Shown piece after piece: positions 17,699-39,571 of a stretch of 64,000 bases of DNA. Each line of letters begins with the position of its first letter. Position 1 is the stretch's first letter. The position numbers and the translations under genes were made by a program. The DNA comes from Winogradskyella sp. (GTDB lineage: Bacteria > Bacteroidota > Bacteroidia > Flavobacteriales > Flavobacteriaceae). The notes beneath the pieces were generated by a model. It searched no databases. It was not told the DNA's origin and saw only the letters and a program-made list of their open reading frames with translations. The DNA is taken from positions 167,528-231,527 of the forward strand of contig PBLD01000009.1 in the NCBI GenBank assembly GCA_002722255.1, given 5' to 3'.

Positions 17699-17738
17699 AC
17701 CATGTCACAGCAATATCAAAGTCACTAAAATATCTTTG
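17699..17738 (+). promoter_or_regulatory. Late promoter P1 (lysis block)
   Basis: ACCATGTCACAGCA at 17699-17712, 18 bp, then TATCTTTG at 17731-17738, a perfect TAnnTTTG. An inverted repeat (AGCAATATCAAAG with CTTTGAT...ATTGCT, 17709-17750) spans the spacer and -7 box and could act as an operator. The first 23 bp are identical to P2. The lysis genes start 51 bp downstream. Confidence 0.75.
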
Positions 17739-17788
17739 ATTCATATTGCTATTAATTGCTTTGAGGGAAGTAATAAAAATTTAAAGGC

Positions 17789-18061
17789 ATGGATAAAATC
17801 AGAGAAACTTTTTTAAAAAAGTATGGTGTTTGGGAATATGTATTGTTCCTGGTAGGTATTGCAATTCTTGGCAGAGTTGTTTACAGCATCATAATAGCAG
17901 ACTTCAAAACAATGACGTGGGATGAAATAGGGATAATCATATTATTTCTTTCTCTAGGTGTGTTAGCAGTTGCAAAACCGTTAGCCATTGCAGACTATGC
18001 GCGTAAAAAAGTAGGTTTAGAAACTAAGGATAAATCAAAAAATGAGCGAATCAATGATTAA
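17789..18061 (+). CDS. Holin-like membrane protein
   Basis: 90 residues with two hydrophobic helices (YVLFLVGIAILGRVVYSIIIA and IGIIILFLSLGVLAVA) and a charged C-terminus (DKSKNERIND). Size, topology and position just before the M15 endolysin fit a holin. Overlaps the next gene by 20 bp. Confidence 0.6.
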   Translation: MDKIRETFLKKYGVWEYVLFLVGIAILGRVVYSIIIADFKTMTWDEIGIIILFLSLGVLAVAKPLAIADYARKKVGLETKDKSKNERIND

Positions 18062-18245
18062 ATCAATAAGTGTAGCATTTATCTACCTACTCACTTTACC
18101 TATACTGCCACAGTTTTTAAGTATTGTTAGTAGTGCTGTTGTTATCATATACTTTCTAACGATGCTTAAGATTAATGCCGTTAACAAATTTTATAATGGC
18201 AGCTGGAGAATGTTTCTAAAATCATGGTTTAAAAAAAGAAAATAG
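18042..18245 (+). CDS. Small membrane protein of lysis block
   Basis: 67 residues with hydrophobic segments (SVAFIYLLTLPILPQFLSIV, AVVIIYFLTML) and a very basic tail (SWFKKRK). It may be a second holin or antiholin; the sequence does not distinguish these. Confidence 0.5.
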   Translation: MSESMIKSISVAFIYLLTLPILPQFLSIVSSAVVIIYFLTMLKINAVNKFYNGSWRMFLKSWFKKRK

Positions 18246-18246
18246 T

Positions 18247-18657
18247 ATGAGCCTGAGCCAAACACAGCGCATCTTTACAAGAAACATTGGTTGTTTAATC
18301 AATTATGCTTACGATGTATTAGAAATAGAAATGACCTTTGGAGAAGCGCATAGAACAAACTCGCAAATGTTGCTTAATTATTTTGGTTATAAAGTAGAGC
18401 GCGGAGGTAGTTTAGGCATTCGCCTGGTGAAATCCAAACAATTAAGCAAAGTATTGTATTCAAGTCATGGTGATCGTTTGGCTGTAGATTTTAATTTTTT
18501 TATAAACGGAAAGCTTACTTACGATTTTCATAAAATAAAACCATTAGGTGATTATTGGGAAAGCTTGCATCCAGATAATGTATGGGGTGGCGACTTTAAT
18601 AAAAACAATATTAAAGATGGTTTTGTTGATGTACCTCACTTTCAAATGAAAAAATAG
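18247..18657 (+). CDS. Endolysin, M15-family L-alanyl-D-glutamate/D-Ala peptidase
   Basis: 136 residues, a minimal VanY/M15-type zinc peptidase that cleaves peptidoglycan stem peptides. The expected zinc ligands are present: H74 and D81 in SSHGDRLAVDF and H131 in DVPHF near the C-terminus. GEAHRTNSQ near residue 32 is the usual upstream signature. No signal peptide, so release through a holin is expected. Confidence 0.85.
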   Translation: MSLSQTQRIFTRNIGCLINYAYDVLEIEMTFGEAHRTNSQMLLNYFGYKVERGGSLGIRLVKSKQLSKVLYSSHGDRLAVDFNFFINGKLTYDFHKIKPLGDYWESLHPDNVWGGDFNKNNIKDGFVDVPHFQMKK

Positions 18658-18663
18658 ATTATC

Positions 18664-19038
18664 ATGATAAAAGTTAATTGGAAAAACCTTACGGAAAACC
18701 TCATTATTACAGTAATAATTTTTATTGTAGGTGCATTTGTTGGTCACAAAGTCACAAAAATTACTTCAGAGTCTGTCGTAGAAATTCTTAAACCTACAAT
18801 AGACAAAGCTATTGATAAAGACACTGTAGAGAATAGCATCTATAATGCTATTAATAATAATTTTGAAAAGATAAAAAAATCAGATAGCCTTACGATTACT
18901 ATAGATCAGCAACCTGCTAACGACAATAGACCAACTACAACAGTAAATAAAGCAGAAGATTGTGTGGTTAACCAGTCTCAATTCGATGCTTTATCTGATG
19001 GTGAGAAACGCAGATTAAAGCGTTGGTTAAAAGATTAA
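18664..19038 (+). CDS. Spanin-like (Rz-like) membrane protein
   Basis: 124 residues: one N-terminal membrane segment (LIITVIIFIVGAFVGHKV) followed by a helical, then charged periplasmic-type region ending in RRLKRWLKD. It sits at the end of the lysis block after the endolysin, the usual place for an inner-membrane spanin. No separate lipoprotein spanin was seen. Confidence 0.5.
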   Translation: MIKVNWKNLTENLIITVIIFIVGAFVGHKVTKITSESVVEILKPTIDKAIDKDTVENSIYNAINNNFEKIKKSDSLTITIDQQPANDNRPTTTVNKAEDCVVNQSQFDALSDGEKRRLKRWLKD

Positions 19039-19150
19039 GAAATCATCTTAAAAATTCATCACTACTACCAGTCACTAGCCATAAGCCTATAAGCCAACAG
19101 GCTATAAAAAAAAGTATTTTTAAAACGACCATTTCCAAAAATAGTCAAAA

Positions 19151-19190
19151 ACCATGTCACAGCAATATCAAAGGCGCTTCCTTTTATTTG
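19151..19190 (+). promoter_or_regulatory. Late promoter P2 (protease/capsid block)
   Basis: ACCATGTCACAGCA at 19151-19164, 18 bp, then TTTATTTG at 19183-19190 (one mismatch to TAnnTTTG). The protease ATG at 19195 is only 5 bp after the -7 box, so the transcript may be leaderless. I see no gene in 19039-19150. Confidence 0.75.
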
Positions 19191-19194
19191 TTGT

Positions 19195-20097
19195 ATGAAT
19201 ACATTTTCAGGTCAATTTATAGATAATAGAACGGTTTTAAATGAAATTTTAACTGGTCAATGGTTGATAAGTCATTCAGGACTTTTACAGCTAGGTCATT
19301 TCTTTCAGCATTTAGATCCTCATGCAAAATCATCATCAAGTGAAAAAGAAGAACGTCAGCTTCTATCATTTTTCAATTCAGATTATGTACGTATAGCACC
19401 TCGTAATGTAGACGAAATACCAGAAGGTACAATCGCTACTATTAATATGGTTGGTCCAATGACAAAATATAGCAGTTGGTGGATGCTTGGTGCCAATGAA
19501 GTGATATGGCAATTAGATTTTCTTAATAACATACCAAATGTAAAGTCTATAGTAGCTTATATAGATGGTCCTGGTGGTGCTGTTTCAGCAATACCATCGT
19601 TTATAGATTTTGCAAAACGAAAAAAGAAGCCAATCGTTGCGCTTTGTGACGCATCGTTAAGTCTTCATCGTTGGATACCTGATGCCATAGCAGATTATCA
19701 AATGGCAGATAATAATATTTCAGCAAGGTTTGGTAGTATTGGTGTAGTGAGCTCTTGGATGGATGCAACTAAATATTACGAAGAAATGGGTGTAAAAATC
19801 CATGAAGTCTATCCTGAAGAGTCCAAACACAAAAATGAAATTTGGCGTGCTATTAAAGAAGATGAGGAAAAAGGAAAAGAGATGCTAAGGAAAATGCACC
19901 TCTCACCTATGGCTATAAAATTTCAGGAAGCCGTAAAAGCTGCACATCCAAATCTAATTGAAGAAGAAGGTGTGTTAACCGGACGAACGTTCGGTACAGA
20001 GGATGCCATTAGAATTGGTATGATTAACAAACAAGGCAATATGATAGAAGCCATGCAAGTAGCAAATGCATTGGCAGAAGCGTATAGTATAAATTAA
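19195..20097 (+). CDS. S49 (SppA/ClpP-fold) phage prohead protease
   Basis: 300 residues. IATINMVGPM starts the fold; AYIDGPGGAVSAIPSFIDF and the later RFGSIGVVSSWMDATKYYEEMGVKIHEVY are family signatures. The expected serine region reads CDASLSLHRWIPDAIAD, and SLSL is the likely nucleophile site, though the usual S-x-G-Y pattern is altered. Directly upstream of the major capsid gene, so it probably matures capsid precursors. Confidence 0.85.
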   Translation: MNTFSGQFIDNRTVLNEILTGQWLISHSGLLQLGHFFQHLDPHAKSSSSEKEERQLLSFFNSDYVRIAPRNVDEIPEGTIATINMVGPMTKYSSWWMLGANEVIWQLDFLNNIPNVKSIVAYIDGPGGAVSAIPSFIDFAKRKKKPIVALCDASLSLHRWIPDAIADYQMADNNISARFGSIGVVSSWMDATKYYEEMGVKIHEVYPEESKHKNEIWRAIKEDEEKGKEMLRKMHLSPMAIKFQEAVKAAHPNLIEEEGVLTGRTFGTEDAIRIGMINKQGNMIEAMQVANALAEAYSIN

Positions 20098-20121
20098 TTA
20101 ATAACCCAAAACAGAAACATT

Positions 20122-22260
20122 ATGTTTAAAAAATTTCAGGCTATGTACGCGTTTATGCTAGCGTTTTTAAAAGCCGAATCATTAATCGAAGATGGTAAGT
20201 TAAACTTATCAGAAAAAGACCTTCAAAGCATGCAAGATACTTTAGGCGAAAAAGTAAAACTATCTGAGGTTGTAGACGCTATGAACAAAGAATTAGCAGA
20301 CATGGCCAAAGATGATGATGGTGAAGATCAACAATTAGTTGATTTAAAAAAGGAAGCTATGGAAATGCTTTTAGCTCATGGCTTATCTCAAGAAGATACA
20401 GAACAGGCTGCAGAAAATCCTCAAGCTACAACAGATCCTGATATGAAGCAACTTTTAGCAGGACTTATTGAGCACAATAAGAAAACTGATAAAATGATTG
20501 AGCAATTAATGAAAGAGCCAGAAGTAGACTCTCCATTAGCTTCAGGAAAACGCGATAATTTAAAAAATATGCATAGTAAAACACACTTTTTAGGTACAGG
20601 TAAAGCGTGGGATGCCTTTGAAGACAGACCATGGAACCAAGCTGCAGCAGGTTTAATTAAAGACTTTAATGTTGGTTCTTTATCAAAAGTAGAAGTTCAA
20701 AAATTAAATGATGATGCAGACTTATATGTACGCGAGGTTAATGCAGACCTTAACTCATTAGAGCGCGATAATGCAGGTTTACCTCCATTTTGGAAAGTTA
20801 TTACCAACGTTGTAGATAAAATTGCAGATGGTAATATTGTTTCTGGCGAAGTAACGCAAGCCCGTAAAAAGAATTGGTTACCAAAAGGTAAGCAAATGAA
20901 TCAGCCAGAAGAGTCGCAAATTTTCCCAGTGCAAATAGATTTAGAATTTGCTGGTTACACCTTACAAGATTTATTAACGTCTTGGATTTCTTCTTACAAT
21001 AAGGAAGGCTCTCAAGCTTATAAAATGAGCTTTGTACGTTACTTAATCTCTGAGTTAATGAAAAAAGCACGTCAAGAAGACCGTAAGGTAGCTATTAATG
21101 GTGTGTATGTAAAAACTCCAGATACTTCTGAGGTAGCAGGTAGAGCAATTAACAGAGGTGATGGTATTATCTATAAGTTATGGAGAGCATTTTGGATAGA
21201 TAAAAAATTCAAAGTGGCTAATGTCGCTGCACCTACAGCGCAAAATATTGTAGACCATGTACCAGAAGTTATTGAAGCAAACCTTAAAGAAGAAGATAAA
21301 AACCAAGATGGTTTAGTATTTTACTTATCACCTTCCTGGTTAAGAAAATACAAGTCTCGTAAACGTCAACTGTTTGGTTTAGATAATGATTACACAGGCG
21401 AAAAGCTAATGGAAATCGAAAACTATCCAAACATTAGATTCTATCCATTAAGAGATTTAGAAGGTTCAGACTTCATGTTTATCACAGATGATAATAATAT
21501 TGATTTGTTAGAGAATATTCCTGGTGAAAAATCCTTATTGCATTTCGAGATGCTTAAGCGTATTCTTTACATCTTTGGTGACTACAAGTTTGGTGTAAGA
21601 TTTAAGCATATTGGTACTAAGGTAAAAGATGAAGATCCTGCTGCATTTAAAGTGCAAACGGTTTGGGCAAATATGCCTCCTTATTTACACGATAGTTTTG
21701 TGCAAATCTACGATGACACTACAGGAGAAGTTACCATTCCTTATTCTACAGTACAAGTAGCAGCAGATTGGGCTACTAATATTACTGATATTAAAGGTAC
21801 ATATGCAGGGCAAGTTGTAAAGCTTAGAGGTACAGCTGGTGTTTCTGGAAATGTGGTAAGTACCGGAAACATGACTTTAGATAGCACCTTTGCGCTTTCT
21901 TCAGGAGGTACTTTGACGTTGTTTGTCAATGACGATTTAACCTTAACAGAAATATCACGTACTACTGAGGCGCCTTCAAATGATGAAGAGCCAGCAACAT
22001 ATGTAGACTCTATTGATGCTACAGAAGGTACCGAATTTAATTTTGCAGGTGGTGGCGCTAATACTTTAGATGAAATCTTAGAAGGTTTTGAAGGTCAGCA
22101 AATCAAAGTGAATGGTGGTGCTGGTGGTGCTGTAACTATCAATGATGTAACTGGTAATATAGAAGTGGCTTCACAAGCTGTATTAGCCAATGCTGCTGAT
22201 AACATCACCTTTGTTAAGGTAGATGGTGTATGGACCGAAGTTGCAAGAACTATCGCCTAA
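20122..22260 (+). CDS. Major capsid protein with scaffold-like N-terminus and repeated C-terminal domains
   Basis: 712 residues, long for a capsid protein. Residues 1-~140 are acidic and helical (DGKLNLSEKDLQSMQDTLGEKVKL ..., MKQLLAGLIEHNKKTDK), resembling an internal scaffold or delta domain that the adjacent S49 protease could remove. The central ~400 residues (FWKVITNVVDKIADGNIV, YPNIRFYPLRDLEGSDFMFITDD) fit a HK97-type capsid body. The last ~165 residues contain two related beta domains of ~75 residues, each ending in TE(I/V)xRT, likely exposed on the capsid. Confidence 0.75.
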   Translation: MFKKFQAMYAFMLAFLKAESLIEDGKLNLSEKDLQSMQDTLGEKVKLSEVVDAMNKELADMAKDDDGEDQQLVDLKKEAMEMLLAHGLSQEDTEQAAENPQATTDPDMKQLLAGLIEHNKKTDKMIEQLMKEPEVDSPLASGKRDNLKNMHSKTHFLGTGKAWDAFEDRPWNQAAAGLIKDFNVGSLSKVEVQKLNDDADLYVREVNADLNSLERDNAGLPPFWKVITNVVDKIADGNIVSGEVTQARKKNWLPKGKQMNQPEESQIFPVQIDLEFAGYTLQDLLTSWISSYNKEGSQAYKMSFVRYLISELMKKARQEDRKVAINGVYVKTPDTSEVAGRAINRGDGIIYKLWRAFWIDKKFKVANVAAPTAQNIVDHVPEVIEANLKEEDKNQDGLVFYLSPSWLRKYKSRKRQLFGLDNDYTGEKLMEIENYPNIRFYPLRDLEGSDFMFITDDNNIDLLENIPGEKSLLHFEMLKRILYIFGDYKFGVRFKHIGTKVKDEDPAAFKVQTVWANMPPYLHDSFVQIYDDTTGEVTIPYSTVQVAADWATNITDIKGTYAGQVVKLRGTAGVSGNVVSTGNMTLDSTFALSSGGTLTLFVNDDLTLTEISRTTEAPSNDEEPATYVDSIDATEGTEFNFAGGGANTLDEILEGFEGQQIKVNGGAGGAVTINDVTGNIEVASQAVLANAADNITFVKVDGVWTEVARTIA

Positions 22261-22277
22261 GTAAATGTATAATCAAT

Positions 22278-22297
22278 GCCTCGGCTTAGGTCGAGGC
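22278..22297 (+). other. RNA hairpin between capsid and next gene
   Basis: GCCTCG-GCTTAGGT-CGAGGC forms a 6-bp GC-rich stem without a T tract. It may stabilise or process the capsid mRNA rather than terminate it. Confidence 0.45.
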
Positions 22298-22315
22298 TCT
22301 TAAAATATTTTAATT

Positions 22316-23134
22316 ATGTACGAATTTCAAGACGTAAATAAACCAGCTACTGCAGGTGCAGGTGCATCTACACCAAAGGATCCTAATGTTCATATTGTAA
22401 GAACAAAAGATGTCTTAACATGGCCAGCTAGAAACGCTAAAGGTGTGTTAGCTGTTGGCGATTTAGTTATGAAGCCAGGTAAAACTGCTATATCAGTTTA
22501 CATGACAGGTGTAAACCAAAAACCAAACTTTGCTACTGAAGGAGATGTAGATAAAGAACAGATAAAGCAAAAGTTTGAAGCGACGCATCCTGGTGATGAG
22601 TTAGAAGCGCATGAGTTTTACCAAAATAACCTAGGTGAAGACCTTGTTATTTTTTATGGTAACTGTGCAGACAGCTCAAAAAGAATGTATGGTACACCAT
22701 GTGCACCTTTAAGAATGAAAGGTGACTTTATGGATGATAAAGATGGTAGAGGCTTCAACTTTAACTTTGAGCAAATACAAGGCACACGCTTTGTTCCTGC
22801 ACATTATAACGGTAACATCCCAACAGCTGCTCCAGCGGCTACAGATGTATCTATAGATATGTTGGCGGCTACAGGCTACCAATACAAGGTAGAGGCTTTA
22901 GATACTACAGCTGCGATTACCATACCAACATTCGATTTGGTACATGGTGATACAGTAACCTTAATTGGTTCTGGTGGTGCTGATCCTGCGACCTTAAGTT
23001 CTGGTGATGCTACTGGTGCTACAGTACTATTAAATGATGACCAAGATTGGACAGCTTTAGAAAATGCAACCATTTCTTTTGAAGTGTTTGACAATGGAGC
23101 GACCATGTATTTAATAGAAAAAAACAGAAGTTAG
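22316..23134 (+). CDS. Capsid-associated (decoration-type) or tail-tube protein
   Basis: 272 residues. Not confidently assigned. The C-terminal ~75 residues (FDLVHGDTVTLIGSGG ... LENATISFEVFDNGATMYLIEKNR) follow the same beta pattern as the repeats at the end of the capsid protein, suggesting a shared decorating domain. Expressed with the capsid gene and followed by a strong terminator. Confidence 0.5.
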   Translation: MYEFQDVNKPATAGAGASTPKDPNVHIVRTKDVLTWPARNAKGVLAVGDLVMKPGKTAISVYMTGVNQKPNFATEGDVDKEQIKQKFEATHPGDELEAHEFYQNNLGEDLVIFYGNCADSSKRMYGTPCAPLRMKGDFMDDKDGRGFNFNFEQIQGTRFVPAHYNGNIPTAAPAATDVSIDMLAATGYQYKVEALDTTAAITIPTFDLVHGDTVTLIGSGGADPATLSSGDATGATVLLNDDQDWTALENATISFEVFDNGATMYLIEKNRS

Positions 23135-23164
23135 TTGATTGTTAGTTTTTTTAATTTTGAGTTG

Positions 23165-23197
23165 AAAAAGTCCTGTGTAATGCAGGACTTTTTTTTT
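23165..23197 (+). terminator. Terminator closing the capsid block
   Basis: AAAAAGTCCTG/CAGGACTTTTT, an 11-bp stem with a 7-nt loop, followed by T7. It lies 9 bp before late promoter P3, a clear block boundary. Confidence 0.9.
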
Positions 23198-23205
23198 GTG
23201 GTGTA

Positions 23206-23245
23206 ACCATGTCACAGCAACACCCAATAATTGCAATTACATTGC
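23206..23245 (+). promoter_or_regulatory. Late promoter P3 (packaging block)
   Basis: ACCATGTCACAGCA at 23206-23219, 18 bp, then TACATTGC at 23238-23245 (partial match to TAnnTTTG). It directly follows a terminator, so a new transcript must start here for the downstream genes. First gene ATG at 23279. Confidence 0.75.
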
Positions 23246-23278
23246 AGTCTCTAGAGATAAAACTTTAAATACATACGT

Positions 23279-24277
23279 ATGAAAACTAAAGACAAAAATG
23301 CAGTGTTAGAACTGTTGGCCAGTCACCCAAAAGCGCCAAAAGCGCGTTATAAAGGTCTGGTTGAAAAATTAAAGGAATTAGATGGTGCCACACCATCGCA
23401 AAAGCGTTTTTATAATGCCGCAATGTATTCGCCTGTAAACCTAGAAGGCTTAGAATACGACCTTAAGAAACTTTGTGGTATTACAGATCGCGAGGTTAAG
23501 AAACTTGTGTCTGCAAACAAGCAAGAAGTTAAAGACCTAGACGTTATTGTAGAGCTTCCTGAAGAAATTGTAGAGCGACTAAAACAGGTAAACCTTGAGG
23601 AATTAAACTACAATTCTGAGTTAAAGCCATTAGCAAAAAATATATCTGAAGCTCTAGGTGTAGAGCCTACAAGCCAAAAGAAAGTAGATCTTATTGCTTT
23701 TATAGATGGCTTTATTCCAAAAGAACCTACTCAAGAAGAATTAGCAACTGCGTTTACAGAGGCGCTATCTGCTGCTCCTGAGGACGTAAAACAAGGTTTA
23801 AAAATCAGAGAGCTTTATCCATTCTTAAACGATGATGATTGTCCGGATGAATTCCACACTCTTACAGGTAAGATGGTTTCAGCTTATATTAACTGGAAAG
23901 AAGGACGTGAAGAGCTTAAGGCTTTGGTAGAAGCAGGTGTTTCTAATGAAGAGATTTATGCTATAGCTAACAAGGTTGTAGCAGATTTTAAACTCAACTT
24001 AGATTGCCATGATGAGCTGACGCATTACCAAGAGCACAAACAAATCTTAGGTAAGCATCCAATTTTTGCAGAAAAGATGCTAGAAGAAGCAGTTAATGCT
24101 TTGGGAACGGTTGAGTTAACTAAGCGTCAAAAAAATCTGCGTAGCTACATTAGTAGAGATCAGAAAGCTTTTGATAAAATGGACGATGGAGAAGCAAAGG
24201 ATAAGTTTGGAGAAAAGCTGCAGACTTGGAAAGATGAGTTAAACCTTGTAGATGCTCGATTAGAAAAAATAAGCTAG
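23279..24277 (+). CDS. Phage protein of packaging block, unknown function
   Basis: 332 residues, highly charged and helical with no membrane segment or enzyme motif that I recognise (KARYKGLVEKLKELDGATPSQKRFY, ELYPFLNDDDCPDEFHTLTGKMVSAYINW). First gene after P3 and 4 bp before the PLD-like gene. Confidence 0.5.
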   Translation: MKTKDKNAVLELLASHPKAPKARYKGLVEKLKELDGATPSQKRFYNAAMYSPVNLEGLEYDLKKLCGITDREVKKLVSANKQEVKDLDVIVELPEEIVERLKQVNLEELNYNSELKPLAKNISEALGVEPTSQKKVDLIAFIDGFIPKEPTQEELATAFTEALSAAPEDVKQGLKIRELYPFLNDDDCPDEFHTLTGKMVSAYINWKEGREELKALVEAGVSNEEIYAIANKVVADFKLNLDCHDELTHYQEHKQILGKHPIFAEKMLEEAVNALGTVELTKRQKNLRSYISRDQKAFDKMDDGEAKDKFGEKLQTWKDELNLVDARLEKIS

Positions 24278-24281
24278 TTCT

Positions 24282-28452: not shown

Positions 28453-28809
28453 ATGAAAAAACTATTTTTAATTCTTGCTTTCATTTCCTTTTTATCAGCT
28501 TCAAGTCAAACTGTTAATGACATACCTATTTCAGACATAGATGCAGAGTATATACAGATATTAGGAACTCATAAAGCTTTTAGTAGGAAACTTACTATTT
28601 CTTTAGATTTTGGACAGAAAGTTAAAGATTTTGGGTCTGGTAAAGAGCTTCAATTAAAAGATGAAAATGGTGATAAACTTATATTTAACTCTATGATTGA
28701 TGCTTTAAACTATATGAGTAAACACGGTTTTGAATTTGTACAAGCTTATGCTATTTCTGTTGGTGGTCAAAACGTATATCATTATCTTTTGAGAAGAAAG
28801 ACCGAATAA
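28453..28809 (+). CDS. Secreted protein, unknown function (likely moron)
   Basis: 118 residues with a signal peptide (MKKLFLILAFISFLSASSQ). The mature part is reminiscent of small flavobacterial exported proteins (AEYIQILGTHKAFSRKLTISLDFGQ, ISVGGQNVYHYLLRRK). Expressed from the lysogen it would alter the cell envelope. Function unknown. Confidence 0.55.
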   Translation: MKKLFLILAFISFLSASSQTVNDIPISDIDAEYIQILGTHKAFSRKLTISLDFGQKVKDFGSGKELQLKDENGDKLIFNSMIDALNYMSKHGFEFVQAYAISVGGQNVYHYLLRRKTE

Positions 28810-28812: not shown

Positions 28813-28827
28813 TTCACTTATAGTGAA
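28813..28827. promoter_or_regulatory. Operator-like palindrome
   Basis: TTCACTTATAGTGAA has perfect 6-bp arms TTCACT/AGTGAA. It is the most symmetric member of the set at 4055, 12572 and 12595. It lies just before a terminator, so its role is uncertain. Confidence 0.4.
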
Positions 28828-31446: not shown

Positions 31447-31475
31447 AAAAAGCCGACTAAGTGTCGGCTTTTAGT
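31446..31475. terminator. Bidirectional terminator between convergent genes
   Basis: AAAAGCCGAC/GTCGGCTTTT (31448-31457 and 31463-31472), a 10-bp stem with a 5-nt loop. A and T runs on both sides serve the rightward cassette gene and the leftward methylase. Confidence 0.85.
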
Positions 31476-32113
31476 TTGTAAACAAATGGCGTTTTGGTTT
31501 TGTGCCAATCGTGGTTAATTATATAGCTGTTCCAAGGCGCATTGTTGCGGAGGGTGTCCATGTGTAGGACTTCGCCTTTGATACCATGCATAGCCATGTT
31601 AATACAACACATCTTAACACACATATGGTCTATGTCTTGAGCTATGTAATAATTACCTTTACAAACGTTATTAGATGCTAGAAGTGTTCTACCGCTTCCT
31701 GCAGCACAATCATTTATTGTATTCCCAAAATCATTTTTATTTACTGTGATTTGAGCCATCATATCACATAAAGATTTAGGTGTAAAGAACTGGCCAAAAC
31801 CTTGTTTTTTGTATTTACCAGCTAGTTCTTGGTAGTAATCACCTAAAGGATCTATCCAATCTCCAGCGGAGATTGCCCTATCATAAATAATGAAAAGCTG
31901 TCCTAAAAGCTTTGGAAAATTATTTATTTCGTCTTCGTCGTATTTTCTTATGGTCTGCAAGTACCAGTCCTCTTGTGTTTGTCTGGCTAGACAGCAAATA
32001 ACAAGAGTTAGAAAATCGTCGAAGACGCGCGCGATATCATGTTTATAGCTTATGAAAGAAAAGAGGGAGTTAAACTCCCTCAAATACTGTGGTACGTCTG
32101 TAGTTTTAAGCAT
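31457..32113 (-). CDS. N6-adenine DNA methylase-like protein lacking a visible NPPY motif
   Basis: 218 residues. GFGQFFTPKSLCDMMAQI (about 105-122) and NDCAAGSGRTLLASNN (134-149) match HsdM-type target preparation and SAM-binding motifs, and YYIAQDIDHMCVKMCCINMAMHG is the next conserved strand. No [DN]PP[YF] catalytic motif is present; the C-terminus reads INHDWHKTKTPF. So it is either an altered methylase or a SAM-binding protein with another role. Overlaps the ArdC-like gene by 8 bp. Confidence 0.7.
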   Translation of the reverse strand: MLKTTDVPQYLREFNSLFSFISYKHDIARVFDDFLTLVICCLARQTQEDWYLQTIRKYDEDEINNFPKLLGQLFIIYDRAISAGDWIDPLGDYYQELAGKYKKQGFGQFFTPKSLCDMMAQITVNKNDFGNTINDCAAGSGRTLLASNNVCKGNYYIAQDIDHMCVKMCCINMAMHGIKGEVLHMDTLRNNAPWNSYIINHDWHKTKTPFVYKLKADT

Positions 32114-32486
32114 TTTCTTTTGGTGTTATAGGCTCGACTTGAGCATTAGAAAATAAATAGGCTAAACTGTAAAAAGTATATTCTTTGTCCTCGTCCTCGC
32201 TTTGCTTGTCCTTAGATTTCATTTTTTTGCTCCAAACGAAAAAACCTTGCTCACCTTTTTTAACTTTAAAGCCTTTTTTCTTCCATTCCCAAAAACCGTT
32301 AAATTCTTGATGCTCTTCATTGGTAAGCCAGGAAATTAAAACGGAGTTAACGGTGGCTTCTTCTGTGGTTCCTAACTCAATAGCCTCCTTTGCTTGGATG
32401 CTCAAAGATTTAAGAAGTTGTTTTTTTTCTTCTTTACTGTTGCAATTTTGCATTGCTTGGTGGATTGTTTGTGTTGTTGTTGTCAT
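32106..32486 (-). CDS. ArdC-like antirestriction / ssDNA-binding protein
   Basis: 126 residues. EFNGFWEWKKKGFKVKKGEQGFFVW (about 60-84) and YTFYSLAYLFSNAQVEP match the N-terminal domain of ArdC, which binds single-stranded DNA and protects incoming DNA. The metalloprotease half of ArdC is absent. Translated with the methylase; the pair is probably anti-defence. Starts MTTTTQTI with the shared ACA-rich start. Confidence 0.75.
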   Translation of the reverse strand: MTTTTQTIHQAMQNCNSKEEKKQLLKSLSIQAKEAIELGTTEEATVNSVLISWLTNEEHQEFNGFWEWKKKGFKVKKGEQGFFVWSKKMKSKDKQSEDEDKEYTFYSLAYLFSNAQVEPITPKENA

Positions 32487-32497
32487 GGTCTTAAATT

Positions 32498-32722
32498 TTA
32501 AAATACGTATTCGTTTAAATCGCTTTGCTCTTGGTGTTCTTCTGTGAATTTATCAGCTATTTCTTGCGCTTTGTTAAATGCGTTTTTGCATTGCTCTTTG
32601 AAGTGGTTGTAATCAGCGTAATTAAAGACTTTTGAAAGTCCTTTTTTGTGAAGTATGGCTTTTACTTGATTACTCAAAATAAAAGGATTATTTTTGCTCT
32701 TGTTGTTGGCTTGTGTTGTCAT
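32498..32722 (-). CDS. Small accessory protein, unknown function
   Basis: 74 residues (MTTQANNKSKNNPFILSNQVKAILHKKGLSKVFNYADYNHFKEQCKNAF...), charged and helical. Same leftward operon as the ArdC-like gene, 11 bp upstream of it. Not recognised. Confidence 0.5.
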   Translation of the reverse strand: MTTQANNKSKNNPFILSNQVKAILHKKGLSKVFNYADYNHFKEQCKNAFNKAQEIADKFTEEHQEQSDLNEYVF

Positions 32723-32735
32723 AAGTCATAAATTT

Positions 32736-32768
32736 TAAAAAAGGCTACTACCGCAAATAGTAGCCTTT
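32736..32768. terminator. Terminator inside leftward cluster
   Basis: AAAAAGGCTACTA/TAGTAGCCTTTTT, a 13-bp stem with a 7-nt loop. On the minus strand it separates the gene at 33203 from the next gene, so it probably attenuates rather than isolates them. Confidence 0.8.
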
Positions 32769-32780
32769 TTGCTTGTTTAA

Positions 32781-33203
32781 TTAAATTTGAAATTCTAGTA
32801 AATTCTTCTCCGCTTCTTCTAAATGGTTTGAAAATTCATTTTCAATAACTAAAAGCACTTTGTTTATTACTGCCGGATTACTTAAGGTAAAGGAGTAACC
32901 GTTTTCGGTTGCAAATTTCATTTGTCCGTTTTCGTTGTCCTTACCTGCCATGAACTGCGTTAACTCGTCGTATTTATCAGACATTTTTTGAAACTTTGTA
33001 GCAAGAATTTGAGCAGTTTCTAAACGCTTTACAACTGCATTTCCATTAGGTCTTAAAACATCATCAATTTTTTGCATGACGCTTTTTTGAGTTGCTCCGT
33101 TTTGCTTTGGAGTTGCTTCAACTTTTGGAGTCGCCTTTTTCTCGTTAGCCTTTGGAGTTTCACTCTTTTTAACTGTTGGCTTTTTCTTTGTTGTTGTTGA
33201 CAT
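32781..33203 (-). CDS. Accessory protein with basic disordered N-terminus
   Basis: 140 residues. The first ~65 are Lys/Thr/Pro-rich (MSTTTKKKPTVKKSETPK...), typical of a disordered DNA- or RNA-binding tail. The rest is helical (KIDDVLRPNGNAVVKRLETAQILATKFQKMSDKYDELTQF). First gene of the leftward cluster, behind a clear promoter. Function unknown. Confidence 0.5.
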   Translation of the reverse strand: MSTTTKKKPTVKKSETPKANEKKATPKVEATPKQNGATQKSVMQKIDDVLRPNGNAVVKRLETAQILATKFQKMSDKYDELTQFMAGKDNENGQMKFATENGYSFTLSNPAVINKVLLVIENEFSNHLEEAEKNLLEFQI

Positions 33204-33234
33204 AATTTGTTGATTTTTAATTAATTAACTTTAT

Positions 33235-33588: not shown

Positions 33589-33628
33589 ACCATGTCACAG
33601 CACAAGCGTTTGTTGTTATGTATTATTG
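33589..33628 (+). promoter_or_regulatory. Late promoter P4 (portal/neck block)
   Basis: ACCATGTCACAGCA at 33589-33602, 18 bp, then TATTATTG at 33621-33628 (one mismatch to TAnnTTTG). The first ATG of the block, at 33633, is only 5 bp after the -7 box, as at P2. Confidence 0.75.
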
Positions 33629-33632
33629 CTCT

Positions 33633-33899
33633 ATGAAACTATACGATGCAATATCACAAATGAGAAGGTTAAGTGCTAACAACATTCCCTTTTCAATAAG
33701 CTTTGTTAGTTTGAATCAAACCAAGGGCACTAGTAATGGTGAAAAAAATGTATCGAAGTGTTTATTAAGGAAAGGCTTATCCAAGGATGAATCTGATAAA
33801 GCCAACTTGTTGATTGGCTACACTGACTTAAGCGATAATACTAATAAATGGTTTTACCTGCCTTTATTATTAAAGTATAATAACATAGAACTTGAATAA
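33633..33899 (+). CDS. Small protein before portal, unknown function
   Basis: 88 residues from ATG 33633 (MKLYDAISQMRRLSANNIPFSISFVSLNQTKG...). An in-frame ATG at 33618 overlaps the promoter. Its stop overlaps the portal ATG by one base. Possibly a head-associated protein by position. Confidence 0.5.
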   Translation: MKLYDAISQMRRLSANNIPFSISFVSLNQTKGTSNGEKNVSKCLLRKGLSKDESDKANLLIGYTDLSDNTNKWFYLPLLLKYNNIELE

Positions 33900-35254
33900 T
33901 GAATATAGAATTTGAAGGAAGAAATGCCTTAGTAGATACTGGTGATATCGCATTTACGTTTGAATCAGCAGAAAATCCACGAGAGTTTGACAAGTACCGA
34001 ATACCTCAAGATAACTTAGATTGGACAAATCAAGAATATCAAATAGGAAACTACAGAGTATTTCCTTACGGTTCTAACAATGATTTGCCAAAAACTATAA
34101 AGGATGTAGTTCAGAACAATTCAATTGCACCAGGTATTTTAAAAAAGAAAGTGCAATTACTTTGGGGTAAAGGACCACAGTTGTATACAGAAGAAATAGT
34201 TGACAATAAATTACAGCGTACATGGGTACAGGATAACAAAGTACAGAATTGGTTAGATAGTTGGGACTATCAGGAATATCTAATGAAATGTATAGTTGAC
34301 TTCACGGACATAGAAGGTTCGTTCACTAAGTTTCACTCATCAAAAGGAATTAGAGTTAATAAACCATCTATATCCAAACTAGAGCACATATCAATAGAAT
34401 ATGCTCGTTTAGGTAATCTATTGTCAGACTTAAGCTATAAACCTAAAGTATGTATCATTACAGATTGGAACTTCAAAAGAGTAGCTGACGTATCAGATTA
34501 CGATGTGTATGGTTTATTCGATTTTAAAAATCCATTCAAATACAGAACATCAATACTATATAGTAACATGTATAGTTTTTGTTCTGATTATTATACGGTG
34601 CCAGATGTATATGGTAGCTTAGAATGGATTAGAAGATCTTCAGCGATACCATTAATATTAAAAGCGCTATCCAAAAATAGTATCAACCTTAAATATCATG
34701 TTATTTCACCGGCAAAGTTTTGGGAAAAGAAAGCCTCAGAACTAAAAGAACAACACGGTGAAAAATATGAGGAAGCGATGTTAATTGCTTATAAAAAAGA
34801 ATACTTAAGACAAGTTTCAAAAGTACTTTCAGGAGCAGAAAACACAGGTAAGTTTTGGCACTCTATTAAATACCAGACTGTAGAAGGACATAAAATTTTT
34901 GAAGAGGGTTGGGAAATAAAAGAGATTAAACAAAACATCAAAGACTTTGTAGAATCTCAAATTAAAATAAGCGATCAAGCCAACAGAATGGTATCAGCTG
35001 GTGTAGGCATGCATCCAGCTCTAGGTGGTGCAGGCGAATCAGGTCGTTCAGATTCAGGTTCTGAACAACTTTATGCGTTAAAGAATTACTTACTTACAGG
35101 TATAGATATACCTGAGACTATTGTAATGAAGCCAATTAATTATGCTTTAAAAATAAACTTCCCTGATAAAAACTATAGACTAGGCTTTTATCATTTACCA
35201 CCTGAGAGAGAGGAAGACATCACAGCTAGTAAAAGAACTAAAAACCAAGTATAA
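33899..35254 (+). CDS. Portal protein
   Basis: 451 residues, the size of a phage portal. NYRVFPYGSNNDLPKTIKDVVQNNSIAPGILKKKVQLLWGKGPQLY near the start, the helical middle, and SDQANRMVSAGVGMHPALGGAGESGRSDSGSEQLYALKNYLL in the C-terminal third fit portal proteins of Bacteroidota phages. First large gene after P4 and coupled to the next gene by one base. Confidence 0.7.
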   Translation: MNIEFEGRNALVDTGDIAFTFESAENPREFDKYRIPQDNLDWTNQEYQIGNYRVFPYGSNNDLPKTIKDVVQNNSIAPGILKKKVQLLWGKGPQLYTEEIVDNKLQRTWVQDNKVQNWLDSWDYQEYLMKCIVDFTDIEGSFTKFHSSKGIRVNKPSISKLEHISIEYARLGNLLSDLSYKPKVCIITDWNFKRVADVSDYDVYGLFDFKNPFKYRTSILYSNMYSFCSDYYTVPDVYGSLEWIRRSSAIPLILKALSKNSINLKYHVISPAKFWEKKASELKEQHGEKYEEAMLIAYKKEYLRQVSKVLSGAENTGKFWHSIKYQTVEGHKIFEEGWEIKEIKQNIKDFVESQIKISDQANRMVSAGVGMHPALGGAGESGRSDSGSEQLYALKNYLLTGIDIPETIVMKPINYALKINFPDKNYRLGFYHLPPEREEDITASKRTKNQV

Positions 35255-36249
35255 TGGATATACCATTCAGCGCCATAGACGAAACATTCCAGGAAGAATT
35301 CAAAGAAGCTCTAGGTTTTACAGATATAGACATACCACTGGTAAAAATCAAACCAGATTTAATATTAGCTGCTTCAGAGCTAATAGACATTATAGGCGGA
35401 GAAACATACTCAGCGTTGATGGATAGTTATACGCTAGATCAAGATGAAGCTATTGTAGATGCTTTTAAAAGAGCTATTGCAACATATGGCTATATGGAAT
35501 TTGCGCCAGCAAACGACATAGCGCATACCTCAAATGGTCGTAGAATGAGAACTTCAGAGAATGAAAAAACACCATTTGAGTGGATGCTTGTTAAAGATGA
35601 TGATAATCTAAAACGTAGAGCGTATAAAGCTATAGACACATTAATTAAATTAATGGATGCAAGCTATAGTGTTTGGAAATCATCCGCAAAGAACACAGAA
35701 ACTTATAACTTATTCATTAGAACAGTTAAAGATTATTCAGAGCATTACGATATTAAATCACGTCTTCTGCTATTAAAATTACAACCAGGTTTAAAATTAT
35801 CAGAAACGAGAGAAATAGCTCCGCGAATAGGTAGTGAATTAATGACTAGTTTAAAGTCAAAAATCAAAAATCAAGCTATTGAAGATACACCAACATCTGA
35901 GCAAATACCAAGTGAAGACGAAGAGAAATTAATTAGCCATATAAGAGAAGCATGTGCCTATTATGCGTTGTCTTGGGCTTTACCACGTATGCAGGTGCAA
36001 TTATTTCCAGAAGGAATTTTGCAAGCTGTGAGAAGTGATCGAGAGACAATTCGAGGGCGCGTGGTTCCACAAGTACCTGTAATAGATCAGGCGGCTCAAA
36101 AATTTATGGCAGATGCAGAACGTGCATTCATGGCTATAGAACATCAATATAAAAAAATGTTCCCTCCAGAAGTTGTAGAAAAAACAGTTTCAGAAACTGA
36201 AGAGGACATTTATGGATTTAACGAAGACGACAATTTTATAACAACTTAA
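35254..36249 (+). CDS. Head-neck protein (DUF6712-like)
   Basis: 331 residues. AASELIDIIGGETYSALM near 45 and the helical C-terminus (EKLISHIREACAYYALSWALPRMQVQLFPEG) resemble DUF6712 proteins that follow the portal in Bacteroidota phages. Probably an adaptor or head-completion protein. Confidence 0.55.
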   Translation: MDIPFSAIDETFQEEFKEALGFTDIDIPLVKIKPDLILAASELIDIIGGETYSALMDSYTLDQDEAIVDAFKRAIATYGYMEFAPANDIAHTSNGRRMRTSENEKTPFEWMLVKDDDNLKRRAYKAIDTLIKLMDASYSVWKSSAKNTETYNLFIRTVKDYSEHYDIKSRLLLLKLQPGLKLSETREIAPRIGSELMTSLKSKIKNQAIEDTPTSEQIPSEDEEKLISHIREACAYYALSWALPRMQVQLFPEGILQAVRSDRETIRGRVVPQVPVIDQAAQKFMADAERAFMAIEHQYKKMFPPEVVEKTVSETEEDIYGFNEDDNFITT

Positions 36250-36251
36250 AT

Positions 36252-36563
36252 ATGAAACTAATTAACTGGCTGCTCAGTCCATTTAGATGGATAAAAAGCA
36301 TATTTCAAAAACTTAAAAGACGTTGGATATTAGCTAAAGCGTATCCAGCTCTGAAAAAGGCAAATGATGAGCAATTGATAAAACGAAAAAAGCTTAAGAA
36401 AGATATCATGTTGTGGCTAAGAAGTTACTTTGGTATAGACGCAAAATCAAAATACATCCCGAAAGATTTCAAAAATAAAGAAGAAGTTAAAGCGGCTGTA
36501 TTAGAGCGTTTCGGTAATGATTTACAACAACTCAATCTTAACTACTCAGATATTTTTGCTTAA
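36252..36563 (+). CDS. Small basic phage protein, unknown function
   Basis: 103 residues, very basic (FRWIKSIFQKLKRRWILAKAYPALKKANDEQLIKRKKLKKDI). Helical. Ends at the base where the next gene starts. Not recognised. Confidence 0.5.
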   Translation: MKLINWLLSPFRWIKSIFQKLKRRWILAKAYPALKKANDEQLIKRKKLKKDIMLWLRSYFGIDAKSKYIPKDFKNKEEVKAAVLERFGNDLQQLNLNYSDIFA

Positions 36564-37438
36564 TGGATAACCTTACGCATCATATCATTGAAATTCCCGA
36601 AAAAGGCATTCTTAAATACATTCCTAAGGAACTAGCTTTTTGTAATAATGATGAGTTTAGAGATGTTGCCCAACTGCTATTTTCTTGGCAGATGGGCAGT
36701 ATCTCCTACCAAGAGTTTAGGGTGCAGGCAATTTATGCATTGCTGAACCTTAAACCTGGTAAACGCAAAATCAACCAAATAGAGTTAGAGAATGCCTTTA
36801 GCAATATAGAGCGCATTAGTTATCTAATGGATTCTTTCTTTATTGAAACTAAGGATAAGAATAGACAGATAAAACTAAATCTTATAGAAAATCCGGTTCC
36901 AAAAATTAAACCAGCACTTTTAAATATATCTGGTCCTAAAGCCAGATTTACAAATACCACATTTGGGCAGTATGAAGATGCTAGCCACGCGTACCAAATG
37001 TTTTACAGAACTTCAGACGTTAAGTATCTGTGGAACTTAATGGCAATTTACTATCAAGAACCTCAAAGACACCAAACAAAGTTTATTGAAAAGAAAGCTG
37101 CGTACTATAAAAAGTATGTAGATCCTGCATTGGCTTATGCATTCTTCTTGTTTTTTGATGCATTTCAAAACTATGTAACGTCATCAAAGGTTATTTGGGA
37201 GAGTAAACAAATAGATCTTTCAATATTATTTAAATCAGATAGCACAATTAAAAGCGATTTACCAGGATTAGGAACTAAGTCCTTAGCCTTTCATATATCA
37301 AAGTCTGGTATTATGGGTAATCTAGAACATACCAGAAAACAACCACTATGGGAAGTACTGCTCCTACTCTATGATTTAAGAAAAACAGAGTTAGATGAAG
37401 CAAAAGCCATAAAAGCAAATCAAAAAAGTAATCCTTAA
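36563..37438 (+). CDS. Phage head/tail-junction protein, unknown function
   Basis: 291 residues, helical with many aromatic residues (AYQMFYRTSDVKYLWNLMAIYYQEPQRHQTKF, AYAFFLFFDAFQNYV). Lies between neck and tail genes. Could be a tail assembly chaperone; not recognised. Confidence 0.45.
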   Translation: MDNLTHHIIEIPEKGILKYIPKELAFCNNDEFRDVAQLLFSWQMGSISYQEFRVQAIYALLNLKPGKRKINQIELENAFSNIERISYLMDSFFIETKDKNRQIKLNLIENPVPKIKPALLNISGPKARFTNTTFGQYEDASHAYQMFYRTSDVKYLWNLMAIYYQEPQRHQTKFIEKKAAYYKKYVDPALAYAFFLFFDAFQNYVTSSKVIWESKQIDLSILFKSDSTIKSDLPGLGTKSLAFHISKSGIMGNLEHTRKQPLWEVLLLLYDLRKTELDEAKAIKANQKSNP

Positions 37439-37447
37439 TTAAAACCC

Positions 37448-37897
37448 ATGGGAAAAGTAGAATGGTTCAAAAATTACGTACAATCTTTAGATGATACGTT
37501 TGAAGAAATCAACCGAAATAGAATTGTGGTTGTCAAAAGTCAATTAACAAAGTTCCTTAATAGTCATAAGAAAAATCAAAACTTACTGCTGTTAGGTATT
37601 CTTCCAGACTTCTCTGGTAAAGGTAATGATGCAGACAGTTTCAAACTTGTTAATATAACACAGTTTTATATCCTAAAAAAAACCACATATTCAGAAGTGG
37701 ACCATGATGAGCTCATGGAAATCTATGAAGAAACCTACATTGTGATTGAAAAAGTCTTAAAGAAAATTTTGGAAGATAGCTTATCATATTCAGAGCTTCG
37801 TTTCTTAAATACAAATTCCATCAAACTAGAACCAGTATTTGATATGGATGGATGTAACGGATGGAAACTAATGTTAAACTTTGATATGTTTGTGTAA
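37448..37897 (+). CDS. Possible tail-completion protein
   Basis: 149 residues (MGKVEWFKNYVQSLDDTFEEINRNRIVVVKS...; FLNTNSIKLEPVFDMDGCNGWKLMLNFDMFV). Size and position after neck genes and before the tape measure fit a tail-terminator or completion protein. Not recognised by motif. Confidence 0.45.
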   Translation: MGKVEWFKNYVQSLDDTFEEINRNRIVVVKSQLTKFLNSHKKNQNLLLLGILPDFSGKGNDADSFKLVNITQFYILKKTTYSEVDHDELMEIYEETYIVIEKVLKKILEDSLSYSELRFLNTNSIKLEPVFDMDGCNGWKLMLNFDMFV

Positions 37898-37929
37898 AGT
37901 AGTATTTTTGAATACTAAACATAAACGCA

Positions 37930-38112
37930 ATGACAGAAAATGATATTATTACAGCTGTAGATGAAATTCTTGAGGATTTAGAATTGAGAAAGAAAATAGG
38001 TATAACTAAACACGATAGAAGGAATATTATTAACCGTCGTTCTATCCCAAAAATGTTAGAGCTATTATATAAAGCTGGTAGATTAAAGATAAAAGATGGA
38101 CCTTCTAAATAA
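37930..38112 (+). CDS. Small phage protein, unknown function
   Basis: 60 residues, MTENDIITAVDEILEDLELRKKIGITKHDRRNIINRRSIPKM. Possibly an HTH-like helical protein. Overlaps the next gene by 17 bp. Confidence 0.45.
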   Translation: MTENDIITAVDEILEDLELRKKIGITKHDRRNIINRRSIPKMLELLYKAGRLKIKDGPSK

Positions 38113-38491
38113 AAGAGATACTACTCAGGATAATGACGTTTTAGAAAAACGTTTCATTGGCCATATCCTAAAAGAAGAAGCGGAAGAGCTAGACAACTAT
38201 CAGCAGTCTTTAATGAGTTCTAGAGGCTTCACAACGTCATCATTATATAATAATAGAGGCTTTCAAGTTCTAGAAGATCATAAGTTGCAGTACACTCATC
38301 CACAAGTGTTACGTTTTATTGATATGAAAACAAGATCTAGTAAAAGTGGTCAAACTACTAAGAAAATAGCACATCCAGTACATAACAAGCCTATCTATGG
38401 TATGATTAATAATGTACTTAGACGTTTACAGTTTGAATATACTGATAAGATGAAAAAAATGCTGTTAAACGACTACAACTTACATATTTAA
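38096..38491 (+). CDS. Phage virion-associated protein, unknown function
   Basis: 131 residues. SSRGFTTSSLYNNRGFQV and RFIDMKTRSSKSGQTTKKIAHPVHNKPIYGMINNVLRRLQFEYTDKM resemble phage morphogenesis proteins, but I cannot name a family. In the portal-tail block. Confidence 0.45.
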   Translation: MDLLNKRDTTQDNDVLEKRFIGHILKEEAEELDNYQQSLMSSRGFTTSSLYNNRGFQVLEDHKLQYTHPQVLRFIDMKTRSSKSGQTTKKIAHPVHNKPIYGMINNVLRRLQFEYTDKMKKMLLNDYNLHI

Positions 38492-38634
38492 AATATTTTT
38501 CTATATTAGTAATCCCTTAAACGGCTATTAATTTTTGTTGACCCATTAAGTATAGCCAAAAAACATAGCTTTATAGCTGTCCATTGAGCAAACTAAAGGT
38601 TAGTACAAACGTATGTTTAACTAAACCTTTAATT

Positions 38635-38763
38635 ATGAAAAAAGTAATTACAATTTGTTTGCTAATGGTGTTTTGCATTGGCTCTGCTCAAAATTTTGAT
38701 GTAGAATTAAAGCCAAATTATTCAATTGATAAAACAAAAATCAAACGACCAGGAAACCAGTAA
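38635..38763 (+). CDS. Very small secreted peptide
   Basis: 42 residues from ATG 38635. MKKVITICLLMVFCIGSAQ is a signal peptide, followed by only ~23 residues (NFDVELKPNYSIDKTK...). It overlaps the start of the next gene. A lysogenic-conversion or entry-exclusion factor is possible. Confidence 0.45.
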   Translation: MKKVITICLLMVFCIGSAQNFDVELKPNYSIDKTKIKRPGNQ

Positions 38764-39214
38764 GATATACCCTAGTGTTTTCCCAACAGTTTTAATAATC
38801 TTATCCGGATTGATATTATATCTGGATAAGATTTTTGTGTTTTTTGATGTGCAATTAGAAAACAATCATGGATACCAACAGACCGAAGAATTTATATGGT
38901 CACTTTCTCAAACATTATCACCAATTATAATAGTAATAGGACTTTATCTAAAACCTTTTAAAGAAGCTTTAATAGTACCTCTATTTTGTTATGTCATCCA
39001 ATTGTGGTTTGTACTAGATTCAAGTTTAACTGTAGATAGACCACTTACATGGGTGTATGTTTTGGGTACAGTAGTATTTATTGTTATAATCTCAGTTGGA
39101 ATTAAAAGAATTTTAATAAGACGAAGTAAACTATTACAATTAAGAGAAAGTGTAATGGAAAAAATCATATCAAAAGACGATCAATTATTAACAAAAAAAG
39201 AGCATGGGAAATAG
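38726..39214 (+). CDS. Membrane protein with three to four helices, unknown function
   Basis: 162 residues with a TTG start. Hydrophobic segments: VFPTVLIILSGLILYLDKIF, IIIVIGLYL, ALIVPLFCYVIQLWFVL, TWVYVLGTVVFIVIISVGI. A charged C-terminus follows. With the secreted peptide it forms a small envelope pair inside the late block, perhaps for superinfection exclusion. Confidence 0.5.
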   Translation: MIKQKSNDQETSKIYPSVFPTVLIILSGLILYLDKIFVFFDVQLENNHGYQQTEEFIWSLSQTLSPIIIVIGLYLKPFKEALIVPLFCYVIQLWFVLDSSLTVDRPLTWVYVLGTVVFIVIISVGIKRILIRRSKLLQLRESVMEKIISKDDQLLTKKEHGK

Positions 39215-39512
39215 AGGCTTAAAACAAAAGATTTCAAATTTAGAGGGTAAGGTAAAATCTCTAGAGGAAGATTTAAATAACGACAATCTCTCAGATTTAG
39301 ATTATAGAAATTCATTAAGAGAAATATTAAATGACGTTAATACCTTAATTAATGAATCAAATAACTTATTCTCCTTAATGCCTCAAAGAGAAATGAAAAA
39401 AAGTCTAGACCTGGTATTTGAAGCATTTATAACCAGTCAATATGCAGATGAAACTTCAGATAGAACAGATGCAGTTTTGCTTTTTAAAGAATTAAGACTT
39501 CTTCTTAATTAA
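39204..39512 (+). CDS. Coiled-coil protein, unknown function
   Basis: 102 residues. LKQKISNLEGKVKSLEEDLNN is a heptad-patterned coiled coil; the rest is helical. Overlaps the membrane protein by 11 bp. Last gene before P5. Confidence 0.5.
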   Translation: MGNRGLKQKISNLEGKVKSLEEDLNNDNLSDLDYRNSLREILNDVNTLINESNNLFSLMPQREMKKSLDLVFEAFITSQYADETSDRTDAVLLFKELRLLLN

Positions 39513-39531
39513 AACATTAGCACAGAGCTTC

Positions 39532-39571
39532 ACCATGTCACAGCACTAAACAAATACACATTGTATTTTGC
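39532..39571 (+). promoter_or_regulatory. Late promoter P5 (tape measure/tail block)
   Basis: ACCATGTCACAGCA at 39532-39545, 18 bp, then TATTTTGC at 39564-39571 (partial match to TAnnTTTG). The tape measure ATG is at 39586. Confidence 0.75.

Follow-up and report, generated by a model that had tools for sequence, protein, structure and literature searches.

A putative phage-specific late promoter word and its candidate reader in a Duneviridae-like prophage of Winogradskyella

How might a prophage in the Bacteroidota open several late gene blocks together, and which protein would do so? The question is raised by a 64-kb stretch of Winogradskyella sp. DNA (contig PBLD01000009.1; the whole stretch is called the window here), in which a prophage with a repressor, late genes and an integrase-like gene spans about 3.7-49.5 kb and carries five copies of the 14-mer ACCATGTCACAGCA. 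An earlier note on this DNA had proposed that these copies form a class of late promoters. The five sites (P1 to P5), their spacing, their positional conservation in related phages and the covariation of base 3 of a short word within them with residue 157 of a phage protein, p186, were established by computation. Together the results make it quite likely that this Duneviridae-like prophage uses the five sites as late promoters, opened by p186 binding to the word, with p186 itself under repressor control.

Five sites and a word that differs between phages

The exact copies start at 17699, 19151, 23206, 33589 and 39532, all on the plus strand. No other full copy was found in the window, as the earlier note had said, or in the source genome (3.2 Mb, 83.9% complete), and with up to one mismatch allowed the genome still holds these five sites only. 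None of 100 dinucleotide shuffles reached five copies. With up to three mismatches the window gave 8 matches against a chance mean of 4.0, a number reached by 8 of 100 shuffles, and no further degenerate copy stands out there. At all five sites an octamer resembling the Bacteroidota -7 box starts 18 bp past the 14-mer, exactly as had been claimed, though the TTG inside it lies at offset 33 in P1, P2 and P4 and one base closer, at 32, in P3 and P5.

One copy heads each late block (Table 1), the block behind P1 including a gene with an endolysin PHROG match (18247-18657). The proposal that the sites form one class of phage late promoters, each with a Bacteroidota -7 box, is supported. One detail of placement is to be amended: every copy had been set in a gap, but P1 begins on the base right after a stop codon ending at 17698 and has no gap upstream. 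P3 is preceded by a terminator-like hairpin at 23164-23194.

The relatives of the prophage were identified through its structural and packaging genes. By terminase and capsid the prophage matches the Flavobacterium phages laban6-1 and 6H and the Cellulophaga phage Ingeline, which all belong to the Duneviridae, with 42-47% identity for terminase (20 matches listed of 48) and 29-42% for capsid in Flavobacterium and Cellulophaga records. Placement in the Duneviridae is by terminase and capsid homology to Labanvirus, Unahavirus and Ingelinevirus. The integrase-like gene (48291-49475) has homologues annotated as integrases in laban6-1, Ingeline and a Microcystis phage. The capsid is present in 8 of 299 genomes of the family sample, the source genome counted. 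A capsid profile search provided 63 viral loci and 5 genome loci, and these 68 loci, together with 15 comparison genomes, formed the set in which words were compared.

Repeated words in relatives were first listed blind, with no motif assumed. Variants of the element emerged as CATGTCACA in laban6-1, CATGTAACA in G117, CATGTCTTAAA in 6H, TGTCCTTTT in Ingeline, Leef, G143, G259 and G266, GTCCTTTT in BT-TP2 and G096, and CGCTGTCCTTTT in a Microcystis phage. This blind listing failed to bring out the family word in G012, the Porphyromonas phages Porph98 and Porph103, or Versailles; sites in the first three were found later using the word list. A pair search requiring TTG at both sites missed many words and was replaced by searches with a list of core words. 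The words of the relatives are GTCACA, GTTACA, GTAACA, GATACA, GTCTTAA and GTCCTTT, and within most phages a single word serves the protease and packaging promoters.

What is shared with these relatives is, judged from this comparison, a shorter, phage-specific core at the same place rather than the full 14-mer. A scan of viral contigs found at least 120 stretches with the exact 14-mer, one copy apiece in the 80 matches listed; these single copies were taken as chance and the 14-mer was dropped as the conserved unit. The recurrence in related prophages that the earlier note proposed to look for applies to the core, at a fixed distance from the -7 box, and not to the 14-mer as such. Random scatter of the 14-mer through related genomes, which the note would have held against its own proposal, does describe the full 14-mer, whose copies elsewhere look chance-like, but not the phage-specific core. 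The TGT-C-ACA dyad pointed out in the motif was rejected as the principle of recognition and is not conserved, because the GTCCTTT or GTCTTAA found at the same place in relatives carries no such dyad.

In the core-word searches, the offset of TTG, counted from the T of TGTC, was 33 in 165 intergenic sites and 32 in another 46; no other offset between 15 and 59 exceeded 31 sites. Within genes, offsets 33 and 32 accounted for 21 and 25 sites, with no peak. An alignment of 133 offset-33 sites shows conservation of the word (TGT, then C, T or A) and of the primary-sigma box TAnnTTTG, but not of the roughly 19 bases between. The T[TC]G of the box was required when these sites were selected; its second base, not used in selection, is A in 89% of them. 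No TTTG box around -33 was found in the 133 sites, where the word is all that is conserved upstream of the -7 box. The earlier note had the usual TTG -33 box replaced by a longer motif, a description that goes beyond what these sites show; in Flavobacterium johnsoniae no -33 motif is identifiable according to the available text of PMC7366714.

Position relative to genes supports the same architecture. In 46 of 50 phages (41 with box) the 200 bp ahead of the protease gene contain that phage's own word; the same holds for the packaging-block gene in 42 of 48 (33 with box) and for the portal-block gene in 32 of 36 (32 with box). The control, the capsid gene, has it in 1 of 51. A random stretch would hold the word with a chance of 6.5%, or 3.7% with box. 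We conclude from these comparisons that Duneviridae and their kin keep the architecture, with a word that tends to be particular to the phage but is set at a constant distance from TAnnTTTG.

Transcription starts were predicted by adding 40 to the position of the T of the word, which puts them near 17743, 19195, 23250, 33633 and 39576; the word would thus begin about 40 bp upstream of the start. At 157 boxed sites the first ATG of an open reading frame (ORF) falls exactly 4 nt past the box in 29, the largest single value, and a second cluster lies at 14-18 nt (44 sites). For P2 and P4 the predicted start is the A of the ATG (Table 1), and leaderless late messages are possible there. In B. thetaiotaomicron only about 3.7% of leaders are shorter than 10 nt (available text of PMC7366714).

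Microcystis phage Mea-Yong924-1 (L135) carries the late word CGCTGTCCTTTT five times (once as TCCTTA) with Bacteroidota-type -7 boxes, along with relatives of p186 and of the LuxR-type protein discussed below; it may in fact infect a Bacteroidota bacterium and not a cyanobacterium.

Covariation of p186 with the word

A phage-encoded activator had been suggested without a candidate. If a phage protein reads the word, its contact residues would be expected to co-vary with it. The candidate p186 was present in 12 of 12 relatives first compared. Base 3 of the word (C or A/T) was the trait against which columns of p186, protease, capsid and a packaging-block protein were scored, across 45 representative phages. 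This sample derives from 61 phages with p186, of which 13 near-duplicates were dropped to leave 48, and L190 and L200 (unassigned word) and L204 (mixed) were then set aside; the words of L168 and L209 were assigned by hand after inspection of their sites.

All 33 phages with C at base 3 have Arg or Lys at residue 157 of p186, and all 12 with T or A have Ile, Gln, Val, Leu or Met there. The pattern was spotted by eye before all columns were scanned; in the scan, residue 157 ranked first of 1380 columns in the four proteins, with a shuffle-corrected score of 0.95 (next, 0.45). On a capsid and protease tree, base 3 and residue 157 each change at least 6 times, the two counts being identical by construction because the traits agree at every leaf. 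Direct reading of guanine would give Arg or Lys at a C-G pair and uncharged residues at A-T pairs. Bases 4-6 of the word were also compared with p186 and discarded as confounded with deep clades, capsid columns performing about as well or better. L190, one of those set aside, has V157 and fits the prediction from this residue, with ATGTTACT at two sites and ATGATACT at one.

The p186 protein matches phrog_21888, a family of unknown function (E 2.3e-18), as do 35 of 40 relatives scanned. Pfam gave no family for the window protein and a single match among the 40 relatives, of one member to Lipl32; neither it nor the relatives showed a GerE domain, sigma70 region 2 or 4, or an activator or zinc-finger family in Pfam. 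A confident AlphaFold2 model built with 40 sequences (predicted local distance difference test 87, predicted template modelling (TM) score 0.81) has an alpha/beta half and a helical half, with residue 157 in helix 152-165, behind helix 129-142. Searches of PDB sequences with p186 and its profile returned nothing convincing.

Several observations weigh against p186 as the reader. Foldseek gave no match at E <=0.001 for the whole model against PDB and viral models or for the helical C-terminal half against PDB. The helical half may be helix-turn-helix (HTH)-like; DNA-binding entries retrieved with that half were not significant (e.g. 2ezk, E 5.7, TM 0.58). Only 3 independent contrasts fall on strongly supported branches of the tree (sign test p 0.25), and the tree carries a warning about long branches. 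Two phages set aside fit incompletely: L200 (K157) has two GTCCTTTTC and one GTAACA, fitting at 2 of 3 sites, and L204 has Q157 yet GTCACA in 2 of 3 words, fitting at 1 of 3, which counts against the reading unless L204 is a recombinant, as is possible. A p186 was found in 61 of the 83 loci and genomes; among the other 22 are 13 loci for which the flank retrieved was often short. BT-TP2 has the GTCCTTTT word four times, three of them boxed, and Porph98 two boxed GTCCTTT sites, both without a p186 match; the match in Porph103 is weak (E 6e-7 and 2e-6). L210-L212 and L214-L217 have neither p186 nor a consistent word, though L215, L216 and L217 each have one boxed GTCCTTT. P5 is less regular than the other promoters (the word precedes the neck gene in 4 of 13 phages and the tape measure gene in 6 of 13), and the word rarely stands directly before p186 (2 of 43). 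Finally, the counts per gene are not fully independent, because each phage had its word assigned from sites of this very kind.

At the place of p186, BT-TP2 (L150) has an annotated transcriptional regulator (5501-5989), which gave no profile match to p186, PHROGs or Pfam.

The other candidate for the activator is a LuxR-type early protein, which would leave p186 some other role. Its homologues in the Microcystis phage and Versailles carry a GerE HTH, and it occurs in 9 of the 12 relatives (the fragment L130 does not include the early region, and the stretches of G096 and G266 may stop short of it). Of 22 further records 19 have it, and two of the remaining three are records of 34 and 19 kb. 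Covariation argues against it. In 28 phages its best column against base 3 scored 0.68 (raw), compared with 1.00 for R157 of p186 and 0.87 for two more p186 columns, and with the LuxR-type protein added residue 157 again came first, of 1508 columns. As the reader this protein was unsupported in a scan of ORFs on both strands. Porph103, with its boxed GTCCTTT sites and weak p186 match, gave no LuxR match; Versailles (50 of 58 kb read) has a LuxR protein, no p186 match and no TGTC word among the repeated words listed. BT-TP2 has the word and no LuxR match, but it has no p186 match either. The available text of PMC8776804 takes Duneviridae LuxR genes as signs of a response to host density, and the word "promoter" is absent from its main text. 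On balance we consider the LuxR-type protein unlikely to be the late activator. In most relatives this protein has cysteines before its HTH.

Based on these comparisons, the reader of the late word is probably p186, and the phage-encoded activator of the earlier note gains a probable identity, since covariation singles out p186. The evidence for this reading is all computational, and covariation shows reading, not the sign of its effect. That p186 binds DNA, and activates rather than represses, we infer from sequence.

Proposed control of p186 and other explanations of the sites

The p186 gene is the last of an operon (12642-17698), and its stop codon adjoins P1. The operon has a proposed promoter, P0, which in the window carries no late word. 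The early promoter, next to the repressor gene, and P0 share operator-like sites of the form TTCACNATANGTAAA (Table 1), a consensus built from these same sites. Matches with up to two mismatches are not rare, with 8 in the window against 2-6 in 12 first-order Markov sequences; the only two exact matches in the window are those at the early promoter and P0. The early-site 20-mer AAATTCACAATAAGTAAATT recurs shortly before the P0 gene of L159, with a 17-mer in L172. In 6H a different 12-mer is common to the early region and P0, and in G012 only 8 bases are. The window repressor probably holds both the early genes and p186, which is the least certain step. The arrangement suggests a cascade from repressor to p186 to the late promoters. 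In 12 of 43 records, near-duplicates included (Ingeline, G143, G096, L157, G259, L208, G117, L166, L176, L180, L195 and L196), P0 itself carries the late word, which would make a positive loop.

Other TTCACNATANGTAAA matches were noted: one with one mismatch on the minus strand at 28813-28827, just past gene 28453-28809 and, like the sites at P0 and the early promoter, a candidate repressor operator, and three more with up to two mismatches at 658, 2091 and 5992. The long gap before P0 contains an iteron-like run of ATTACAG/CTGTAAT-like repeats (12300-12540), possibly a replication origin; L217, L167 and L211 have runs of GTTACA/GTAACA as well.

We propose that host RNA polymerase would recognize the TAnnTTTG-like -7 box and that the promoter would be active only with p186 on the word about 40 bp upstream of the start, holding the polymerase there. 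In the lysogen the repressor would shut the early promoter and P0; upon induction p186 would be made and P1-P5 opened together. Word and reader would drift jointly, giving each phage lineage a private late word.

Repression of the late genes by p186 in the lysogen would also fit the covariation, which says nothing on sign, and the word overlaps the stretch with which sigma region 4 would be in contact. However, p186 lies on the lytic strand and should be off in the lysogen because the operator-like sites at P0 resemble those of the early promoter, and the unaided promoter would probably be weak because only the word and the -7 box are conserved. A repressing p186 is, in our estimate, decidedly improbable. 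We find it harder still to credit that the word serves an alternative sigma factor, whether from phage or host, as its upstream element. The word does begin about 40 bp upstream of the predicted start, at a fixed distance from the -7 box, but p186 has no Pfam sigma domain, the box keeps the housekeeping pattern TAnnTTTG and the word varies from phage to phage, unlike what a shared host sigma would lead one to expect. Phages commonly have repeats at module borders, but that the sites are protein-binding or recombination sites travelling with late modules, and not promoters, is scarcely credible given their single orientation in the window, their fixed spacing to the -7 box, the ATG exactly 4 nt past the box in 29 of 157 sites and the near absence of the word before the capsid gene.

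Table 1. Promoters, operator-like sites and regulatory genes of the prophage (positions in the window)
Feature	Position	Strand	Details
Prophage repressor	3702..4028	-	Pfam HTH_3, E 3.7e-7
Operator-like sites at early promoter	4024..4069		4024 exact (TTCACAATAAGTAAA); 4055 on minus strand, 2 mismatches
LuxR-type early regulator	4425..5012	+	phrog_10300; rival candidate
Two operator-like sites TTCACNATANGTAAA at P0	12572..12609	+	12572, 2 mismatches; 12595, exact (TTCACTATATGTAAA)
-7 box of proposed promoter P0	12617..12624	+	TATATTTG; operon 12642-17698
p186, proposed late activator	17138..17698	+	186 aa, phrog_21888; R157 codon 17606-17608, predicted helix 152-165
Late promoter P1 (putative)	17699..17738	+	14-mer, 18 bp, TATCTTTG (17731-17738); heads lysis block
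Late promoter P2 (putative)	19151..19190	+	14-mer, 18 bp, TTTATTTG (19183-19190); protease/capsid block; predicted start, ATG at 19195
Late promoter P3 (putative)	23206..23245	+	14-mer, 18 bp, TACATTGC; packaging block; hairpin 23164-23194 before
Late promoter P4 (putative)	33589..33628	+	14-mer, 18 bp, TATTATTG (33621-33628); portal/neck block; predicted start, ATG at 33633
Late promoter P5 (putative)	39532..39571	+	14-mer, 18 bp, TATTTTGC; tape measure/tail block

A minus-strand cassette (31457-33203) lies between the packaging block and the portal block, with relatives in laban6-1, G012, G117 and partly 6H. Its gene 31457-32113, also on the minus strand, matches a laban6-1 gene annotated as a DNA methyltransferase.

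Relation to known late activators

Activation of several late blocks by one phage protein is a known principle. In phage Mu, activator C serves the late promoters lys, I, P and mom as a single phage protein with sites beside the core promoter, acting with host polymerase (available text of PMC4461284). The system proposed here is similar in that one phage protein would switch several late blocks through sites beside the core promoter, and the covariation supports the reading of the word by p186, whose action on the late promoters would be of the Mu C kind. In contrast to Mu C, p186 lacks a Pfam activator family, its word co-varies with one residue across phages and the -7 box is of the Bacteroidota type; no homology to Mu Mor/C was found in Pfam for p186 or 40 relatives. 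The Ogr/Delta late activators of P2 are likewise small phage proteins acting upstream of several late promoters. Unlike them, p186 has no Pfam zinc-finger match, and its word lies near -40 of the predicted start. Bacteroidota primary-sigma promoters have TAnnTTTG at -7 and TTTG around -33 (available text of PMC7366714); the late promoters share the -7 box but have a phage-specific word near -40 and no recognizable TTTG around -33.

A literature search found no late-gene switch, late promoters or late activator described for these Bacteroidota phages among the matches listed. While phrog_21888 is listed with unknown function, a late activator role is proposed for it here. A wider claim, that p186 founds an unrecognized class of late activators in phages, lacking any known relative in fold, which replaces host sigma in recognizing the upstream element across a wide range of Bacteroidota phages and whose specificity is retuned by one residue of one helix to give each lineage a private word, could in our view go either way.

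If the proposed role is true, a family of unknown function would become the late activator of Flavobacterium, Cellulophaga and Polaribacter phages and of many uncultured relatives. Furthermore, residue 157 and base 3 would represent a naturally evolved recognition code that may be addressed with natural pairs of protein and promoter.

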